Shown here: piece by piece, positions 6,064 through 32,316 of the stretch | Numbering within the stretch: position 1 is the stretch's first letter | How the letters are laid out: each line of letters opens with the position of its first letter | Source: Candidatus Roizmanbacteria bacterium | Lineage (GTDB): Bacteria; Patescibacteriota; Microgenomatia; UBA1406; GWC2-37-13 | Assembly: GCA_027002315.1 (NCBI GenBank) | Contig: JALWZV010000089.1 | Location: forward strand, 1 to 32,379 | Direction: 5' to 3' | DNA: 32,379 nt | Position numbers and translations under genes: made by a program | The notes under the pieces: generated by a model | The model's input: only the letters and a program-made list of their open reading frames with translations | The model's database searches: none | Told to the model about the DNA's origin: nothing

Positions 6064-7851
6064 ATGTTTTTTTCAAAAGTAGCTGAGTATTTCAAACAAA
6101 TAGATAGAACTCAATCCCGTCTTGAGATAACAGATCTTTTATCATCTTTATTTAAAGAGCTAAGCGTAAGTGAAATACAGCCGACTCTCTATCTTTTACA
6201 GGGGCGTGTTGCTCCATTATATGAAAAAGTAGAGTTTGGTATGGGTGAGAAAATAATCTTGAAAAGTTTATCCTTAGCCCTAAGTCTTGATTCGAGCTAT
6301 TTGAATAAAGAGTATAAAAGAGTTGGAGATTTAGGTCAGGTAGTAGAAAACTTTAAAAAACAAATAACCTCTTTTGATAGGCGAGATTTGCAGGTAATTG
6401 AGGTATATCGAGAGCTTAAGAAAATGGCCTTGGCGAGTGGTACTGGCTCTCAAGAAACGAAGATAAAGATACTTGCTAGTTTAATTAGACAACTAGACCC
6501 ACTTTCTTGTAAATATTTAATAAGAATTCCTTTGGGGAACTTACGTTTAGGGTTTTCTGATATGACTGTTTTAGATGCATTTTCTTGGATGATAAAAGGA
6601 GATAAGAGTTTAAGACCAACTATAGAGAGGGCTTACCATTTGCGACCGGATTTAGGGTATTTAGGTTTTTTGATTAAAAAAAGTGGGGTTGATGAGTTAC
6701 AAAATGTTCGCCCTGAAATATTTACGCCGATCTTAATGATGAGAGCAGAGAGATTATCTTCAGCAAAAGAAATTATTAAAAAGATTGGTAAGTGTATAGT
6801 TGAGCCGAAGTTTGATGGTTTTCGTCTCCAGGTGCATTACTCGAAAAAAGACAAAAGGGTTAGATTGTTTTCTCGCAATCTGGAGGATGTAACCCATATG
6901 TATCCCGATATTGTGAGAGGAGTTATTAAGGAGGTTGTTGCAGATGAGGTTATTTTAGAAGGAGAAGCTATAGGTTTTGATGTTGACACAGAAACGTTTC
7001 TACCTTTTCAGGCCACGGTGCAAAGAAGAAGGAAATATGATGTTGAGGAAAAAGCCAAGGAGATTCCTCTCAAATTGTTTGTTTTTGAACTTCTATATCT
7101 TAATGGTGACGATTACACAAATAAGCCCTTTAAAGAAAGAAGGAGAGCTTTAGAGACCGTGATCAAGTCATCAATAAATGTAGCAAAGAGCACTATTTTT
7201 AAGACTAAAGAGATAATTACAGATGATCCTAAAAAACTAGAGTTAGAGTTTGAGGAATCGGTAGCCGATGGTTTGGAAGGTATAGTGGCAAAAAAGATAG
7301 ACGGAGTATATCAACCGGGAGCGCGAGGATGGAACTGGATAAAGTTTAAAAGAAGCTACTCTTCTAAACTTGAGGACACGATAGATGTTTTAGTTATGGG
7401 TTATGACTATGGTAAAGGAAAAAGAACAGGGTTTGGAATAGGTGCTTTTTTAGTTGGAGTATATGATAGGAAAAATGATAGTTTCAAGACGGTCGCTAAA
7501 GTAGGAACAGGTTTAACAGATGACGAGTGGAAAAAAATGGTTAAGAAATGCCGTATGTTCCAGACAAAAACAAAGCCAGCTATTTATGAAGTGGATAAAC
7601 AGGTCATACCTGATGTCTGGATAAAACCATCGATTGTTGTTGAGATTTTAGCAGATGAGGTGAGTCGTTCACCTGTTCACACAGCTGGAAGAAAGATGAG
7701 AGCAACAAAAAGTGGCCAAGGACTAGAGGTGGATGTTCCTGGTTTTGCTCTAAGATTTCCTCGTTTACAAAGGTTTAGAAATGATAAAAGACCAGAGGAT
7801 GTAACAACACTAACTGAGTTACAAGAAATGTTTAGAGAACAGAAAAAGTAA
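6064..7851 (+). CDS. ATP-dependent DNA ligase (LigB/archaeal type)
   Basis: 595 aa; nucleotidyltransferase motif I 'VEPKFDGFRLQVH', 'LFSRNLEDVTHMYPDI', 'EGIVAKK', 'GWNWIKFKRSY', and N-terminal DNA-binding domain. Confidence 0.93.
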   Translation: MFFSKVAEYFKQIDRTQSRLEITDLLSSLFKELSVSEIQPTLYLLQGRVAPLYEKVEFGMGEKIILKSLSLALSLDSSYLNKEYKRVGDLGQVVENFKKQITSFDRRDLQVIEVYRELKKMALASGTGSQETKIKILASLIRQLDPLSCKYLIRIPLGNLRLGFSDMTVLDAFSWMIKGDKSLRPTIERAYHLRPDLGYLGFLIKKSGVDELQNVRPEIFTPILMMRAERLSSAKEIIKKIGKCIVEPKFDGFRLQVHYSKKDKRVRLFSRNLEDVTHMYPDIVRGVIKEVVADEVILEGEAIGFDVDTETFLPFQATVQRRRKYDVEEKAKEIPLKLFVFELLYLNGDDYTNKPFKERRRALETVIKSSINVAKSTIFKTKEIITDDPKKLELEFEESVADGLEGIVAKKIDGVYQPGARGWNWIKFKRSYSSKLEDTIDVLVMGYDYGKGKRTGFGIGAFLVGVYDRKNDSFKTVAKVGTGLTDDEWKKMVKKCRMFQTKTKPAIYEVDKQVIPDVWIKPSIVVEILADEVSRSPVHTAGRKMRATKSGQGLEVDVPGFALRFPRLQRFRNDKRPEDVTTLTELQEMFREQKK

Positions 7852-8586: not shown

Positions 8587-9420
8587 ATGAAAAGCAAGCT
8601 TTCAATAATTATTCCCACCTTGAATGAATCTAAACATCTACCCCTGCTATTAAAAGACTTATCTAAACAAACAAATAGAGATTTTGAGGTAATTGTTGTT
8701 GATGGAGATTCGGACGATGATACCCGTTCTGTTGCTGAAGGTTTTAACAAAACCATTCAGATAACTGTTATCAACGCGCATAAAAGACACCTCTCATATC
8801 AGAGAAATTTAGGAGCGGAGCATGCTAAGGGGGATTATGTTGTGTTTATAGATGCAGATTCTAGAGTGAGGAGAAGTTTTGTTAATAGCATTTTTAGAGT
8901 TTTAAAGAAGCAAAAACATCTTGTTATATTACCTGTGTTTGATACAAATGTTAGCGGTGTTGCAGAAAAGACCCTTTTTTCTGTGACTAATTATATGCTT
9001 GATATCTCACAGCTTTTGAGGCTACCTTTTACTCCTGGAGCCTGTTTAATCTTCGAAAAACATTTTTTTCTGTTTGTTGGAGGATTCAGAATTACAAAAA
9101 AACAGAAGAAGAAAAAATTGTTTCCAGAAGATGTAGATATATTAAAGCGGGTATTAGCTTGTGGAGTTATTCCTTACCTCGCTTCCGAGGTAAAGTTTTC
9201 TTTTTCTATGCGTAGGTTTAAAAAAGAAGGATTTTTAAAGGTGTTCACAACTTACACTTTAAGTGCTATTAATATGCTCACAAGAGGGAAAATGGATTTC
9301 GATATAGAGTATAGAATGGGGGGAGACTACTATAAAAGAAGACTTCGAGTTGATAAGAAATCTGATTTAGTTAATAAATTAAAGACAATGCTTTCTCGAG
9401 TTAAGAAAATATTAGAGTAG
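8587..9420 (+). CDS. family 2 glycosyltransferase
   Basis: 'LSIIIPTLNESKHLPLLLKDLSKQTNRDFEVIVVDGDSDDDT', 'YVVFIDADSRV'. Confidence 0.9.
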   Translation: MKSKLSIIIPTLNESKHLPLLLKDLSKQTNRDFEVIVVDGDSDDDTRSVAEGFNKTIQITVINAHKRHLSYQRNLGAEHAKGDYVVFIDADSRVRRSFVNSIFRVLKKQKHLVILPVFDTNVSGVAEKTLFSVTNYMLDISQLLRLPFTPGACLIFEKHFFLFVGGFRITKKQKKKKLFPEDVDILKRVLACGVIPYLASEVKFSFSMRRFKKEGFLKVFTTYTLSAINMLTRGKMDFDIEYRMGGDYYKRRLRVDKKSDLVNKLKTMLSRVKKILE

Positions 9421-10152
9421 GGTTTTTGTCAGTGTAAATTTAGAAATAACTGGATAGTGATCAGAGCTCATTTTCTCAAGTCTCACAGTGCTAACTTTTT
9501 TAATGTTACGGTATAAGATATAGTCTAACTTCACTTTTGCTGAAAATATTTTTAGAACCCTTGTTAAATTTGTGTAGTTAATGTTATTGGTTGCTTCTTT
9601 TAGGTTATATCGTTCTATTATTTTTTCGAACCTCTTTTTGTTATACATAAAGTTAAAATCACCCGCGATAATAATAGGCTCCTGTTTTGAGTTAATAGTG
9701 GATAAAAATGAGTTCATTTGTTTAATTCTTGTCCCGTTGCTACTCACTAGATGTGTAAGATGCACATTGTATACTGTTAGAGGTTTATTTTCTTTTTTAA
9801 ACTCTAAGTACGTTTGTAGGACTGTTCTTGACTTGTTTCCTCCTTTGAGTATGAAAAGTAGTATCTCATACATACTTCGTGGTAAATTAAGGACAAGATT
9901 TTTTTTAACAGAAAATTTTTTAGAGTTATAGTATGTTGCTACACCGAAAATTTTTCCAAACTTAACAAATGAGTTAGAAAAATCAGCGAGTTTGAGTCCA
10001 AGCGTAGTTGATATTTTATTTAGGTTACTGATCTCTGTGTCGACTTCTTGTAGACAAACAATATCTATGTTTGGATTTTCCTGCAAGATAAGTTTTAGAT
10101 CACCTATTCCTTTATTAAATAACGTATTGTATGTTAACAAAGTTACTTTCAT
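9412..10152 (-). CDS. endonuclease/exonuclease/phosphatase family protein
   Basis: 'LLTYNTLFNKG', 'DIVCLQEVDTEI', 'IIAGDFNFMY', 'LDYILYRN', 'SSDHYPVISKF', the EEP fold motif set. Confidence 0.87.
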   Translation of the reverse strand: MKVTLLTYNTLFNKGIGDLKLILQENPNIDIVCLQEVDTEISNLNKISTTLGLKLADFSNSFVKFGKIFGVATYYNSKKFSVKKNLVLNLPRSMYEILLFILKGGNKSRTVLQTYLEFKKENKPLTVYNVHLTHLVSSNGTRIKQMNSFLSTINSKQEPIIIAGDFNFMYNKKRFEKIIERYNLKEATNNINYTNLTRVLKIFSAKVKLDYILYRNIKKVSTVRLEKMSSDHYPVISKFTLTKTLL

Positions 10153-10261
10153 AACTAGTAGGGATTATAGCAAAAAACCCCAAAAAACATTGTATGTTAG
10201 TCTTTTCAAAGTTATCCACACAGTTGTTGATAAATATTAGAGATTGTTACACCAGTCTTTT

Positions 10262-10281
10262 CTATAGTTTATAAACTATAG
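10262..10281. repeat. 20-bp perfect palindrome CTATAGTTTATAAACTATAG
   Basis: Read directly. The right half plus flank (ATAAACTATAGGACT, 10271-10285) repeats at 10304-10318. Confidence 0.9.
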
Positions 10282-10317
10282 GACTACTTATAGTAGTTAG
10301 TTAATAAACTATAGGAC

Positions 10318-10346
10318 TTGACAAAGAAAGAAAAGTTATTTATTAT
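10318..10346 (+). promoter_or_regulatory. consensus promoter TTGACA-N17-TATTAT
   Basis: -35 TTGACA 10318-10323, 17-nt spacer, -10 TATTAT 10341-10346; ATG of the micro-ORF follows after 6 nt. Confidence 0.75.
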
Positions 10347-10352
10347 TAAGCT

Positions 10353-10487
10353 ATGGAATTACGAAAGAAGAAAAAAATAATGAAGTTAAAGATCTCTGTC
10401 AAAAGGGATGTTGGTTTTGCCAAAAGAGAGTTAGGAAAGATTGCACGTAAAAAACTAAATTTGCCGTTTAAATTATTTACTTTATAA
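10353..10487 (+). CDS. 44-aa highly basic small protein (MELRKKKKIMKLKISVKRDVGFAKRELGKIARKKLNLPFKLFTL), unknown
   Basis: ATG placed 6 nt after the -10 box of a consensus promoter; ends at TAA 10485-10487 just before a stable inverted repeat. Below the ORF-track length cutoff. Confidence 0.5.
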   Translation: MELRKKKKIMKLKISVKRDVGFAKRELGKIARKKLNLPFKLFTL

Positions 10488-10490
10488 AAA

Positions 10491-10548
10491 AGAAGGGCAT
10501 TACTACCGCTCATTTTTTTAAGGTTATGACGAGTAGTAATGCCCTTCT
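10491..10548 (-). terminator. 16-bp stem inverted repeat, likely terminator for the 10618-12729 minus gene (possibly bidirectional)
   Basis: AGAAGGGCATTACTAC (10491-10506) and GTAGTAATGCCCTTCT (10533-10548) are perfect inverted repeats; on the minus strand the stem is followed by a T tract. Confidence 0.7.
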
Positions 10549-10617
10549 CTTTGCCAATATTTATTTCGAAAAACAGAATAGCACAAGAATATTTTAAAGT
10601 CAAGAACTTATGTAGTA

Positions 10618-12729
10618 TTACTTTATCATGTACAGAGAGGCTTGGCCGTTTGATGACGTGAATATTTTATAAGCAACCTGGCTGAATTTTTCTTCATTTA
10701 ACTGAGGATATTTTTCTCTTTCTAAGGGAGAGACGACGATGTATTTAATATGGTATTTTCTTGCCATTGCTAACACAACATTTGGATCACTGGTTGCGTA
10801 GAAGGTTTGAATTTCTGGTATCCTTTTGCCAACAACATTCGCTGATCCTCGCCATAACCACTCATGCACCTGCCAACCGGCAACCGTAGGTAAGCCAGTG
10901 TAAGCTGAAACGGAGTTATAGTCTGTGTACGAGTCTCCTTGAGCTTCTATAATTATTGGTTGTCCTACGATATTATGATTGACAAACTCAATAATTTCTT
11001 TTATCGCAGGGTGTTGTGTCTTCATCCACTTAGAACCATCTAAATCGGCTTTTTTATTTAATTTTCCGTAGTATGAAGTGATGGCAAAATATGGATATAT
11101 CACAACAAGCATTGTTAACGCAGAGAAAATGAGTTTAACTATTACCCAACGTATTTTTTTTAATTTTGTCTTTTTGACTAGTGCTATTGTGTACACAGTT
11201 GCAATACTCATCATTATAAAAGCCTGATATCCTAGTTTAAACATAGTATTTGCTCTGAAATAACCAGGATAGATATCTTTAGCATAAAAAAACTCAGGTA
11301 TTATTATTAAAATTGTTCCTACAAAAAACAAAGAGAACACAAATAAAGCAACCTCGCTAATCTTTTTCTTTTTTATATTAAGTGATAGGAATGTTACAAA
11401 ACCAAACCAGAAAAATCCCCATAAGACTAAGAGCATCCAGAGAGGCGATATCTGACAATTTTCAGACAAAAACACAAGTGGCCCAATGTGCTTAATTGAG
11501 GATAAGAAAGACGGAGGACAGTTTAACCCAATTTTATTAGAGAAAGGTGAAAAGTGAGATGAAAAAGGATAAGAAAAGACCAAAAATGACGCTATCAAGG
11601 TAATTAGTCCTAAGAAAGTTTTTCTATTAAATCCTTTTATAAATAAAAGAATGAATGAGAAATATAACAGATATATTGGACCATCAAATGCATTTGTCAT
11701 ATAGTGAATAGCTATAAGAAATCCAAATATTGCCCCTAAGAAATATGACTCAAGTTTTAACTTAAAAACAAGCAGGTAGGATAAAGCTAATGTTAAAAGT
11801 ACAATTGGAATATCGAACACATGTCCATGTAGATCGGCTACGACGTATGAGTATGCTGGAAATTCATGTATTGTGTGATATATAAATCGTGTTGCATTTG
11901 GATACCAATATTTTTCTGGGTGAGGTACTAAAGTAAATATTTTCCAAAAAGGTAGAGGATTATTAGCATCGTATCCTTTTGTGAAAACATATATTGTGTG
12001 GAGATTTCCGCCTAAGTTAGCAATAAAAGCTCCAAATAAGCCGAACAGAATAACAAAAAAATTAGAAACCTTTTTAAAACTGTTTTTAATAAGCGTTGTT
12101 ACGATGGAAAACACCTCTGTTATGCCTAAACCGAACAAAGTTGCCAGTATGAGATTATAACCAAACTTGGAAGGAATATTGCTTAGTTTTATAAGAACAG
12201 CTCCTGTTAAATGACCGAAGTAGTAATAATTAATTGGATACCCTTTAGGATGAGTAGGATCTGCAGATAACCACATATCTAATGGAGGAAGATGTTTGGA
12301 TCTGAGAATTGAGTTCATAAAACCAAAGTCCATAAATTTTTCTAACCCATGTATTGATGGTTCTTGTCCTCGAACAAAGATCCAAAAAGCGAAACTTAGT
12401 ATAAATAAGATCTCAACTCCAACAATCTTTTTTATCGATTTTTTTTCTAATAACTTGAACTTGGGAAAGTATTTAGAAATTAAAAAGTACTCAAGTGTGG
12501 CAAAAGTAAAAAGAGATGTAAAAAGAAAGACCCTTGTAAATTCGAACAGCTGTGTTGCTACCAATGTAAAATAGCTCAGTAACACAATTGATACTATTTT
12601 TGAGAAAGCATAACCATCATCAAAGAAAGTGCGACCAAGTACTAGTTTTACCAACGGGTAGAAAACTATTCCTAACCAGAATAGGTAAATATACCATGTG
12701 ATAGCATACCCAAGTGACGATAGTTCCAT
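10618..12729 (-). CDS. DUF2298-type (Chlor_Arch_YYY) polytopic membrane protein
   Basis: 703 aa, many TMs; 'YPINYYYFGHLTGAVLIKLSNIP' and 'FPAYSYVVADLHGHVFDIPIVLL' typical of the YYY family. Confidence 0.85.
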   Translation of the reverse strand: MELSSLGYAITWYIYLFWLGIVFYPLVKLVLGRTFFDDGYAFSKIVSIVLLSYFTLVATQLFEFTRVFLFTSLFTFATLEYFLISKYFPKFKLLEKKSIKKIVGVEILFILSFAFWIFVRGQEPSIHGLEKFMDFGFMNSILRSKHLPPLDMWLSADPTHPKGYPINYYYFGHLTGAVLIKLSNIPSKFGYNLILATLFGLGITEVFSIVTTLIKNSFKKVSNFFVILFGLFGAFIANLGGNLHTIYVFTKGYDANNPLPFWKIFTLVPHPEKYWYPNATRFIYHTIHEFPAYSYVVADLHGHVFDIPIVLLTLALSYLLVFKLKLESYFLGAIFGFLIAIHYMTNAFDGPIYLLYFSFILLFIKGFNRKTFLGLITLIASFLVFSYPFSSHFSPFSNKIGLNCPPSFLSSIKHIGPLVFLSENCQISPLWMLLVLWGFFWFGFVTFLSLNIKKKKISEVALFVFSLFFVGTILIIIPEFFYAKDIYPGYFRANTMFKLGYQAFIMMSIATVYTIALVKKTKLKKIRWVIVKLIFSALTMLVVIYPYFAITSYYGKLNKKADLDGSKWMKTQHPAIKEIIEFVNHNIVGQPIIIEAQGDSYTDYNSVSAYTGLPTVAGWQVHEWLWRGSANVVGKRIPEIQTFYATSDPNVVLAMARKYHIKYIVVSPLEREKYPQLNEEKFSQVAYKIFTSSNGQASLYMIK

Positions 12730-21345: not shown

Positions 21346-22998
21346 TTATTTTTTTCCTCCAATGGCTCCGCTATGAGGAAACTCTATGTTTAAAGTGTTT
21401 TTAAGTATTTTGGCTACAGGACCAATATAAGCTGCTGTTGAGGCAAAGCCCATACCTGTCTGGAATCCAGACCCCAAGCTACCAACTCCTCCAAAGAAAA
21501 CACCTGGAGAGAACTTTGGCATCGGAATTGGTTTTGGATTGAGCAGCTTTTTAGCTAACTTTATTAGGTCAGGGGTCATAAAAAGAACAGTCATTGAGAT
21601 TAGAAGTGAAAGAGCATCGGGATCCATACCCTTAGTAAATGGAGGATGAAATATATTAGGAGAGGTGACATTAATCACATTTAACAACGTGTGACCTGTT
21701 AAAAGTATTGTTACCAGGATAGGAAATGTGAGGAGTTCAACGGTTAATCCTTTTAACCAGCTTGAGAATGCGTTGTTCCCTGGAATTGCGTTAAACATTA
21801 TTAGGAGAGGAGAGAATATAATAAGAAGGATAATATTAACATAAGCAACCAAGACCATAATCAGTACTCTAAAGGCCAAGAATAATATTGTTAGAAAAAT
21901 AATTATCCCTATTAGTAGTGGACCTAAAATAAATGCTAACGCGACAGCTAATATTATTTCAGGACCATATATTAATAAGTCTGCGATGCCGTGAACAATT
22001 TTACTTGCAATTGCTACATCTGCTATCAAAATACCTAGTTTCCCCTCTATTTTGCTAATAAGATCTGTAAGCCAGTTGTAAATTTTCGCATTGTTTACCA
22101 TTGGCAACGTTATAAATATCGTTGTTGGGATAACAACGGCCACTCTAAACAAAGCTCCCCACCAGCGGTTGAATATATCAAGCATTAAAGGTCCGATAGC
22201 AAAAATTGTTTTAACATCTTTAAACAATCCTCGACCGCCTAATAGTTTACCTAAAATTGTTGCGGGGTTAGCCTCAAGATATGAGCTTATTTCCTGTGAC
22301 GTTTTAGCAGCGTCAAGTCCATTGATATGTGAGAAAATACTCACAATAATCGCAGTTGAAATGTACATTAAATCTATTAATAGTCCCGCAATAGCAAAAG
22401 AGAAGGTTACCATAATTATGGTAACTATTATTCGAGGTAGAGAATTTTCTAGTGTTACTATAGTTTGAGGGTTAACCTTCATTCTAAACATAACCATAAA
22501 GCCTATTGTTACAAGTACTAAGACTAGTAGAACAAAGGAAATATTTCTGAATGTTAACCAGATTATGGAATAAGTTTGTATACTAGCGAAACCTATCCCT
22601 GTTGCGTAAGTTTTAGGTATAAACCCTGCATTTTGTAAACTGTTGGCAGCCCAGGTGGAAAAGGAAGCAGGAGGGTATAGATATGGCATTATTGTAATTG
22701 TGGAGAAGAATTTCCCCAAAGATTTAGTTCTTTGAATGGCTAATTTTTTTTCTGTTTGGGATGAGCAGTATTTCTCGTCCAGAAAACACCTCATTTTTAC
22801 ATATAGTTCTTTTTTTTGTTGATTCTTTTCGATGGAGGTAGGAATATATAAACTCTGTTGACCTTGATGAGTAATGGTTTGTTGTGGAGATAAGACTATA
22901 AATGCTATTATTATAATAACATAAGTTGCAACAATAAAAATCACCTTTTTAGAAAATTTTAGTGACTTTTTTATTAGAAACCAAATATATTCCAACAT
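21346..22998 (-). CDS. VirB6/TrbL-like polytopic membrane protein (putative T4SS-like component)
   Basis: 550 aa, multiple TMs, Gly-rich C-terminus; general TrbL/VirB6 architecture next to a VirB2-like gene. Confidence 0.65.
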   Translation of the reverse strand: MLEYIWFLIKKSLKFSKKVIFIVATYVIIIIAFIVLSPQQTITHQGQQSLYIPTSIEKNQQKKELYVKMRCFLDEKYCSSQTEKKLAIQRTKSLGKFFSTITIMPYLYPPASFSTWAANSLQNAGFIPKTYATGIGFASIQTYSIIWLTFRNISFVLLVLVLVTIGFMVMFRMKVNPQTIVTLENSLPRIIVTIIMVTFSFAIAGLLIDLMYISTAIIVSIFSHINGLDAAKTSQEISSYLEANPATILGKLLGGRGLFKDVKTIFAIGPLMLDIFNRWWGALFRVAVVIPTTIFITLPMVNNAKIYNWLTDLISKIEGKLGILIADVAIASKIVHGIADLLIYGPEIILAVALAFILGPLLIGIIIFLTILFLAFRVLIMVLVAYVNIILLIIFSPLLIMFNAIPGNNAFSSWLKGLTVELLTFPILVTILLTGHTLLNVINVTSPNIFHPPFTKGMDPDALSLLISMTVLFMTPDLIKLAKKLLNPKPIPMPKFSPGVFFGGVGSLGSGFQTGMGFASTAAYIGPVAKILKNTLNIEFPHSGAIGGKK

Positions 22999-30975: not shown

Positions 30976-32316
30976 ATGATTAAGTATAAGGAACGACCAA
31001 TAGTTATTTCGGTAGGGGGTTCACTGTTAATCAACCAAGATGGTATTAACTATCGTTTTTTACGTAAACTCAACCATTTCATCCGTAAACAAGTAAAACA
31101 AGGGAGAAGATTCTTTTTGGTTGCTGGTGGAGGTAAAACTGCTAGACATTATAGAGATGCAGGTAAAGCTGTGATTGGTGGTATGTCTGATGAAGATTTA
31201 GATTGGTTGGGCATACATGCAACTCGTTTAAATGCACACTTATTACGTACAATATTTCAGGATATATCCCATCCTAGAATTATAGAAAATTATGATAGAA
31301 AACTTCATAATTGGAAGGAACCGATTGTTATAGGAGCAGGTTGGAAACCGGGGTGGTCTACAGATTATGACGCTGTTATTTTAGCTAGAGATTATGGAGC
31401 AGATTTAATTATCAACTTATCTAACATTGACTGGGTTTATGATAAAGATCCTAATAAGTATGATGATGCTAAGATAATCAAAAAGTTAACATGGGAAGAA
31501 ATGGAAAAACTTGTAGGAAAAAAATGGAAACCTGGAATTAATGCCCCCTTTGATCCAGTAGCAGCGCAATTGGCTAAGGATTTAGAGCTCACAGTAATAG
31601 TTGCTAATGGAAATAACTTTAGTAATTTAAACAAGATACTTGAGGGAGATAGTTTTAAAGGAACGGTTATAATGCCATTTAAAATGGATGCGAGCTTTTA
31701 CGATAGAGAATATTATACAGGGGATAAAGGAGGACTGAAGTTTAAGTACTTACAGAAGAGTTTCTTGGGAAATGTTATTCAAAAAGCCACAAACTTATAT
31801 AGAGCTTTTATGATCAAGATATATTTGAGACCTAAAACCTGTCTTGATGTTGGATGTGGAACGGGCGAGTTAGTTAAGTATTTGAGGAAGTTGGGGATAG
31901 ACGCTATGGGTGTAGAGATATCGTCTTATGCTTTTGAGTTTGCTGACAAGGAGGTTAAACCATTTTTAAAGCACGGAGATATACTTAAATTACCATTTAA
32001 AGATGATAGTTTTGACTTGGTGTTAACGTACGATGTATTACAGCACATCGACAGATCAAAGATAAAGAAAGCGATAAAGGAAACAGTTAGAGTGAGTAAA
32101 AAATACATTCTTCATAAAATATATACAAGAGAAAATGTGTGGTTTCAGGTATTTCATAATAAAGATCACTCTGATATCTCAGTTTTTTCACGTGCCTCGT
32201 GGAGAAGGATGTTTTCTTCACTTAAGAATGTTGTTGTTATGAAAAAAGGCATCTTAAGATTGCCATCATTTTTTGAGACAATCTTCCTTTTGAGGAAAAA
32301 AGAAAAAGAGGTATGA
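30976..32316 (+). CDS. UMP kinase-like amino acid kinase fused to SAM-dependent methyltransferase
   Basis: N-terminal 'IVISVGGSLL', 'FLVAGGGKTARHYRDA', 'IVIGAGWKPGWSTDYDAVILARDYGADLIINLSNIDWVYDKDP'; C-terminal 'TCLDVGCGTGELVKYLRKLGIDAMGVEIS...LPFKDDSFDLVLTYDVLQHI'. Confidence 0.88.
   Translation: MIKYKERPIVISVGGSLLINQDGINYRFLRKLNHFIRKQVKQGRRFFLVAGGGKTARHYRDAGKAVIGGMSDEDLDWLGIHATRLNAHLLRTIFQDISHPRIIENYDRKLHNWKEPIVIGAGWKPGWSTDYDAVILARDYGADLIINLSNIDWVYDKDPNKYDDAKIIKKLTWEEMEKLVGKKWKPGINAPFDPVAAQLAKDLELTVIVANGNNFSNLNKILEGDSFKGTVIMPFKMDASFYDREYYTGDKGGLKFKYLQKSFLGNVIQKATNLYRAFMIKIYLRPKTCLDVGCGTGELVKYLRKLGIDAMGVEISSYAFEFADKEVKPFLKHGDILKLPFKDDSFDLVLTYDVLQHIDRSKIKKAIKETVRVSKKYILHKIYTRENVWFQVFHNKDHSDISVFSRASWRRMFSSLKNVVVMKKGILRLPSFFETIFLLRKKEKEV

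Follow-up and report, generated by a model that had tools for sequence, protein, structure and literature searches.

A putative DnaA-coupled sense/antisense locus of Microgenomates, in which a regulated leaderless micro-gene faces a structured RNA

The locus described here lies in an intergenic gap of a 32,379-nt stretch of Candidatus Roizmanbacteria DNA (contig JALWZV010000089.1), hereafter called the window. The gap holds a regulated promoter, a DnaA box, a micro-ORF of 44 codons, and, on the opposite strand, a predicted small RNA that faces the micro-ORF (Table 1). One of the two flanking genes, encoding a DUF2298 membrane protein, also adjoins the locus in relatives from the same family. 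The initial annotation had described operator-like palindromes, a consensus promoter, a micro-ORF, and a stable inverted repeat, and every one of these elements was found in its place. It was correct yet understates what the locus contains, namely the DnaA box (10212-10220), a minus-strand promoter (10603-10575), and the minus-strand orientation of the hairpin U-tract. Elsewhere on the plus strand of the window, a 446-aa protein (30976-32316) joins an amino acid kinase (PF00696) to a SAM-dependent methyltransferase (PF08241), which is an unusual fusion, and positions 6064-7851 encode a three-domain ATP-dependent DNA ligase (PF04675, PF01068, PF04679), a kind that archaea and eukaryotes usually have, here in a bacterium.

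Table 1. Features of the locus and its neighboring genes, with positions in the window.
Feature	Position	Strand	Remarks
Endonuclease/exonuclease/phosphatase-family gene (neighbor, context only)	9412..10152	-	Divergent; Pfam PF03372, E = 9e-14
Perfect DnaA box TTATCCACA	10212..10220	+	97 bp upstream of second CTATAGG (10212 to 10309)
DnaA-like box TTATCAACA in inverted orientation, possibly a second site, with one mismatch	10225..10233	-	Weaker evidence; TTTGGATAA similarly placed in many relatives
Perfect 20-bp palindrome CTATAGTTTATAAACTATAG	10262..10281		Lineage-specific; not conserved in aligned relatives
Conserved operator, 18-bp dyad CTATAGGACTACTTATAG containing first CTATAGG (10276-10282)	10276..10293		CTATARGNNNNCYTATAG dyad in relatives
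Second CTATAGG repeat, two bases upstream of -35	10309..10315	+	33-bp spacing to first repeat
Plus-strand promoter TTGACA-N17-TATTAT	10318..10346	+	-35 at 10318-10323, -10 at 10341-10346; conserved in family alignment
Micro-ORF, 44 codons, ATG at 10353, stop at 10485-10487	10353..10487	+	Conserved; probably leaderless
Predicted small RNA, with hairpin HP2 as its terminator	10486..10568	-	Model R1, E = 1.7e-12; 5' end inferred from promoter
Minus-strand promoter TTGACT-N17-TATTCT, extended -10 (TG), near-consensus	10575..10603	-	TTGACA-N14-TGNTA form in most relatives
DUF2298 membrane protein gene (neighbor, context only)	10618..12729	-	Ends close to small-RNA promoter; Pfam PF10060, E = 5e-83

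The pattern of substitutions indicates that the micro-ORF is a real gene under strong purifying selection as a protein. The Ka/Ks check proposed in the initial annotation was run on its homologs and gave, for 92 pooled pairs, a dN/dS of 0.047 in frame compared to values >1 in both other frames, the in-frame value being approximate because synonymous differences approach saturation. When relatives were searched at the protein level, short ORFs in syntenic position turned up in several genera of the family (Roizmanbacteria), and a profile search found the micro-ORF at the same genomic place in 53 of its 72 genomes and 26 of its 34 genera; beyond this family, homologs occur elsewhere in the order and class. 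A lack of conservation in relatives would have spoken against the small gene proposed initially, and the ORF is conserved, so that this objection fails. Homologs share the C-terminus xFxxxQFxxLxKKNLxxPxKLYHL-stop. The mRNA is probably leaderless, because the ATG follows the -10 element by only a few bases in relatives too. The micro-protein is basic and carries no hydrophobic membrane stretch. AlphaFold2 predicted one long helix followed by a short tail, with modest confidence (pTM 0.37) that makes the model not useful for a fold search, and no relative was found in Pfam, NCBIfam, or PDB, including small DNA-binding and ribosomal proteins. Of the roles initially suggested for the peptide, antimicrobial-like activity gained no support, and nucleic-acid binding found none in the form of a known DNA-binding fold, a single helix being predicted.

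Two hits of the first protein search (L008 and L010) were discarded as chance matches within larger ORFs, lacking both promoter and hairpin. Second, unlinked copies of the micro-ORF, with neither a CTATAGG promoter nor an intact hairpin, are present around 1501-1602 in L092 (G010:C2) and L098 (G069:C63). Upstream of the second copy in L098 lies a fragment, ACTCGTCGTCCCCTTTAATATT, and its resemblance to the hairpin suggests that this copy arose from a duplication.

The plus-strand promoter in front of the micro-ORF matches the consensus at 11 of 12 positions. In the alignment of relatives, CTATAGG starts 7-9 bases upstream of the -35 element in most loci, and a second conserved CTATAGG lies 33 bp further upstream, which in the family of the window falls within the 18-bp dyad CTATARGNNNNCYTATAG. 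In the window itself, a direct repeat, TAGTTWATAAACTATAGGACT, occurs at 10265 and 10298, its copies being 33 bp apart and identical at 20 of 21 positions. A pair of CTATAGG motifs at exactly 33 bp was found by a strict pattern in 45 of 88 loci, compared to 2 occurrences in a background of 3.2 Mb of sampled genome, both strands included. These data suggest that the two CTATAGG sites bind a control factor. The perfect palindrome of the initial annotation is instead specific to this lineage. Perfect palindromes of at least 20 bp occur on average 0.04 times per dinucleotide-shuffled window and twice in the actual one, but a search for further copies, as proposed in the initial annotation, found CTATAGTTTATAAACTATAG nowhere else in the genome (866 kb), even when 3 mismatches were allowed. 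The proposed operator is thus upheld as to its repeats, whose conserved form is the CTATAGG pair at 33 bp together with a phased DnaA box, and not as to the perfect palindrome. With ORF, operator repeats, and promoter all conserved, the proposal of a tightly regulated small gene was borne out. The other perfect 20-bp palindrome of the window, GTTACCATAATTATGGTAAC (22406-22425), is situated inside a coding sequence (21346-22998).

DnaA boxes were counted in the 83 loci with a recognizable promoter. In 70 of them, a box that is perfect (53 loci) or has one mismatch is present 95-105 bp upstream of CTATAGG, and the distance is exactly 97 bp in 45 of 83 and 95-100 bp in 69 of 83. Of the 13 loci without a box at 95-105 bp, several carry theirs at 107-108 bp, approximately one helical turn beyond 97 bp. 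Most of the loci came from one hairpin pattern search, so these spacing statistics apply to hairpin-carrying loci; from the box density in the window, we estimate that approximately 0.3 such box-bearing loci would be expected by chance. The spacing of 97-100 bp recurs in the families with the anonymous labels f7, f17, f19, f21, f23, f25, f28, and f42, and the combined geometry of 97-100 bp and 33 bp was seen again in many other families of the class. Genome G007 has only 18 perfect boxes in 800 kb, so that they are rare, and two of these adjoin dnaA, which supports TTATCCACA as the true DnaA box. Consensus, spacing, and presence at dnaA suggest that the 9-mer at 10212 is a DnaA-binding site. 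The idea that the locus is oriC was rejected because it coincides with neither the GC-skew minimum nor dnaA: both of these map to ~1.04 Mb in G007, whereas the locus is found at 1.20 Mb, 163 kb off, and in G180 it lies ~67 kb from dnaA.

The 3' end of the micro-ORF meets the hairpin HP2 (arms 10487-10513 and 10526-10552), and a 208-nt region folds with z = -2.7. On the plus strand, patescibacterial loci have A-runs before the hairpin and inconsistent T-runs after it; therefore, the tract is the U-tract of a minus-strand transcript, and in the window it overlaps the complement of the micro-ORF stop codon. An internal U.G pair on the minus strand, corresponding to a C.A mismatch on the plus strand, is kept in 31/32 and 28/28 sequences. 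Together with the inconsistent T-run, this mismatch rules out the hairpin as a plus-strand terminator. Directly upstream of the RNA on the minus strand, most loci contain TTGACA-N14-TGNTA. The predicted RNA has its own promoter, an intrinsic terminator, and a conserved structure with covariation, as is characteristic of structured small RNAs. The stable inverted repeat of the initial annotation is therefore present, but it belongs to a separate small RNA of the opposite strand rather than to the micro-gene, and the coding gene and noncoding RNA offered there as alternatives both appear to be present, the RNA being on the other strand.

In Levybacteria, a second hairpin, HP1, lies between the minus-strand promoter and the terminator, and a second hairpin is found in most families. 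The HP1 stem shows two-sided compensatory changes in 19 cells compared to 8.5 in shuffles (0 of 500). Its loop is conserved in Levybacteria (UCCUGCCU), and loops reading CCUGUCC, UCUGUCC, UCUGCCU, and CUGCCC occupy the equivalent place in other families, the general form being YCUGYCY. Roizmanbacteria, the family of the window, have the terminator hairpin only, and covariation is thin in this family because HP1 is absent and HP2 nearly invariant. No Rfam match in the region exceeded the gathering threshold of any family, and no relevant literature on the RNA or the locus was found among open-licence papers. A function of the loop as an anti-Shine-Dalgarno seed was rejected, since translation starts in G180 and G007 show no enrichment of 7-8-mers complementary to it. 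Levybacteria loci (e.g., L108 and L140) also carry a conserved TTTTAGCYTC ~10 bp before the minus-strand -35 element, and both promoters are preceded by motifs resembling TATCAATC; these motifs are possibly the site of a further shared regulator.

Run against the class (Microgenomates), a covariance model of the terminator hairpin recovered the RNA from 192 of 281 genomes, representing 160 of 220 genera, mostly as a single locus per genome, with about a third of the class genomes giving no match. Among phylum genomes outside the class, there were only two marginal matches, in surroundings with neither ORF nor promoter. Named contigs bearing the locus belong to Roizmanbacteria, Levybacteria, Gottesmanbacteria, and Woesebacteria, all of the Microgenomates group. 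Non-patescibacterial matches to the hairpin pattern (Rhizobium and others) were set aside as coincidences without A-run, promoter, or ORF. In many families, a radA-like gene neighbors the locus, with rho-like or PIN/TRAM-like genes nearby, as identified by eye from the sequences, whereas in the family of the window the neighbors are the DUF2298 gene and an endonuclease/phosphatase gene. Families f7, f8, f10, f19, f36, f38, and f39 have the promoter followed by the hairpin and no recognizable micro-ORF in the one to four loci read for each. Because promoter and small RNA both remain in these families, the constant unit across the class, as judged from the sequences, is the promoter with the small RNA and not the peptide, the ORF being present in most lineages. 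Inheritance is vertical and mostly single-copy, in a recurring gene context.

The architecture of the locus is well supported at the sequence level, and what is inferred from it comprises the function along with transcription, DnaA binding, the factor acting on CTATAGG, base pairing, and the link to replication. We propose, with a probability of roughly 0.55, that the locus is a DnaA-coupled sense/antisense pair in which a regulated leaderless micro-gene faces a structured RNA. On the plus strand, a sigma-70-type promoter would be controlled jointly by DnaA, bound 97-100 bp ahead of the second CTATAGG, and by a factor occupying the two CTATAGG sites, whose 33-bp spacing corresponds to about three helical turns. 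The plus transcript would start at or beside the ATG and be translated as a leaderless mRNA, giving a basic helical micro-protein with a conserved C-terminal motif (of PxKLYHL type in the family of the window). A strong minus-strand promoter, at which no operators are visible, would produce a structured small RNA of ~55-110 nt, whose conserved terminator hairpin overlaps the 3' end of the micro-gene. Firing of the plus promoter would yield an RNA complementary to the small RNA and run into its gene, because the two units converge and overlap; the small RNA could in turn pair with the micro-gene mRNA. This antisense interplay is deduced from the geometry of the two units. Most likely, such an arrangement would couple the small RNA level, and that of the micro-protein where present, with the replication cycle through the amount or ATP state of DnaA. 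A far more tentative extension of this proposal is that, across the whole class, the sense/antisense RNA ratio (plus, in most lineages, the micro-protein) reports or limits replication initiation.

Other readings of the locus were weighed against this proposal. The small RNA may be a trans regulator acting through the YCUGYCY loop, with the plus transcript serving as a mere sponge or source of interference and the micro-protein as a secondary addition. The wider spread of RNA and plus promoter compared to the ORF, as well as the conservation of the HP1 loop in many families, are consistent with this, but HP1 is missing from the family of the window, sequences complementary to the loop are not enriched at translation starts in the two genomes analyzed, and the ORF is strongly selected where it is present, which leaves such a regulator possible but doubtful. 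Somewhat less probable, and in our opinion unlikely, is a type I toxin-antitoxin-like pair, in which the micro-protein would be harmful when overproduced and the small RNA would overlap the 3' end of its mRNA and trigger decay. Convergent genes overlapping at their 3' ends, a small ORF, and a strong antisense promoter fit such a pair; however, the micro-protein is basic, predicted to be helical, and free of any hydrophobic membrane stretch, RNA and plus promoter persist where the ORF is missing, which is unexpected of an antitoxin, and a locus that is inherited vertically, mostly as one copy and with recurring neighbors, also argues against it.

A more ordinary explanation would combine a micro-ORF of unknown function with a 3' hairpin that does no more than terminate transcription, both of the micro-ORF and of the convergent DUF2298 gene. 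Although the hairpin does lie between two converging genes in the family and its U-tract follows the direction of DUF2298 transcription, a separate promoter sits between the hairpin and DUF2298, conservation of the hairpin sequence extends to loci with other neighbors (radA, rho, and PIN/TRAM genes) and to loci without the ORF, and conservation of sequence throughout a class is not expected of terminators; we regard this explanation as quite improbable. Marginally lower still is the probability that the locus titrates or recharges DnaA in the manner of datA or DARS, its transcripts being incidental. The helically phased box at a conserved distance from the other sites would suit that function, as would a position 67-163 kb from dnaA and away from the origin, but there are usually only one or two boxes, and these are tightly coupled to a promoter, a selected coding sequence, and a structured RNA.

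The DnaA-coupled sense/antisense reading concerns organisms in which the control of cell cycle and replication is almost unknown, since few Patescibacteria are cultured. A DnaA-box promoter of near-fixed geometry, facing a small RNA retained in most of a class of bacteria with minimal genomes, offers a directly testable entry point into this control, and the locus adds two undescribed families, one of small RNAs and one of micro-proteins. Standard annotation misses both because of the size below 60 aa, the leaderless mRNA, and the lack of an Rfam or Pfam model. If the replication-coupled device outlined above exists, it would be a chromosomal analog, in Microgenomates, of plasmid copy-number control.

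Several known systems share individual features with the locus. The E. coli datA and DARS sites are non-origin chromosomal sites of DnaA control, and the locus resembles them in being such a site with a DnaA box at conserved spacing to other sites; it differs in having few boxes, embedded in a promoter with a coding gene and a small RNA. ColE1 plasmids control their copy number by the antisense pair RNA I/RNA II together with the small protein Rop, and the likeness lies in sense and antisense RNA hairpins combined with a small helical protein and, as proposed here, a link to replication, whereas our locus is chromosomal, away from the origin, and makes no replication primer. The closest parallel in layout, by analogy, is yonT/SR6, a type I pair in which the small ORF and the antisense RNA are convergent and overlap at their 3' ends (PMC5848175). 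The toxins of type I pairs are, as a rule, small hydrophobic peptides (PMC6563280). The geometry of the antisense overlap and the promoters, with transcripts that are predicted, fit the type I layout, and the convergent small ORF and small RNA overlapping at their 3' ends are shared with both txpA/RatA and yonT/SR6. In contrast to these, the peptide here is basic and not a membrane peptide, the RNA is kept without the ORF, and the ORF promoter bears a DnaA box and an operator; membership among toxin-antitoxin systems was rejected because of the peptide type and the retention of the RNA. Neither yonT/SR6 nor sda is related to the locus by sequence, and homology of the micro-protein to Sda (PF08970) was rejected as chance, only 1 of 29 members giving a hit, at E = 0.087. 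By functional analogy, nevertheless, the closest parallel is sda of Bacillus subtilis, a gene for a tiny protein whose promoter contains DnaA boxes and is directly activated by DnaA, with ATP-DnaA binding far better than ADP-DnaA at low concentration (PMC4447404). The likeness, which is one of function only, consists in a very small protein gene with a DnaA box at its promoter (here the phased TTATCCACA box of 70/83 loci). No sporulation is known from these bacteria. Unlike the array at sda, the locus has one main box at a fixed distance, accompanied by CTATAGG sites, a putatively leaderless mRNA, and a facing small RNA.
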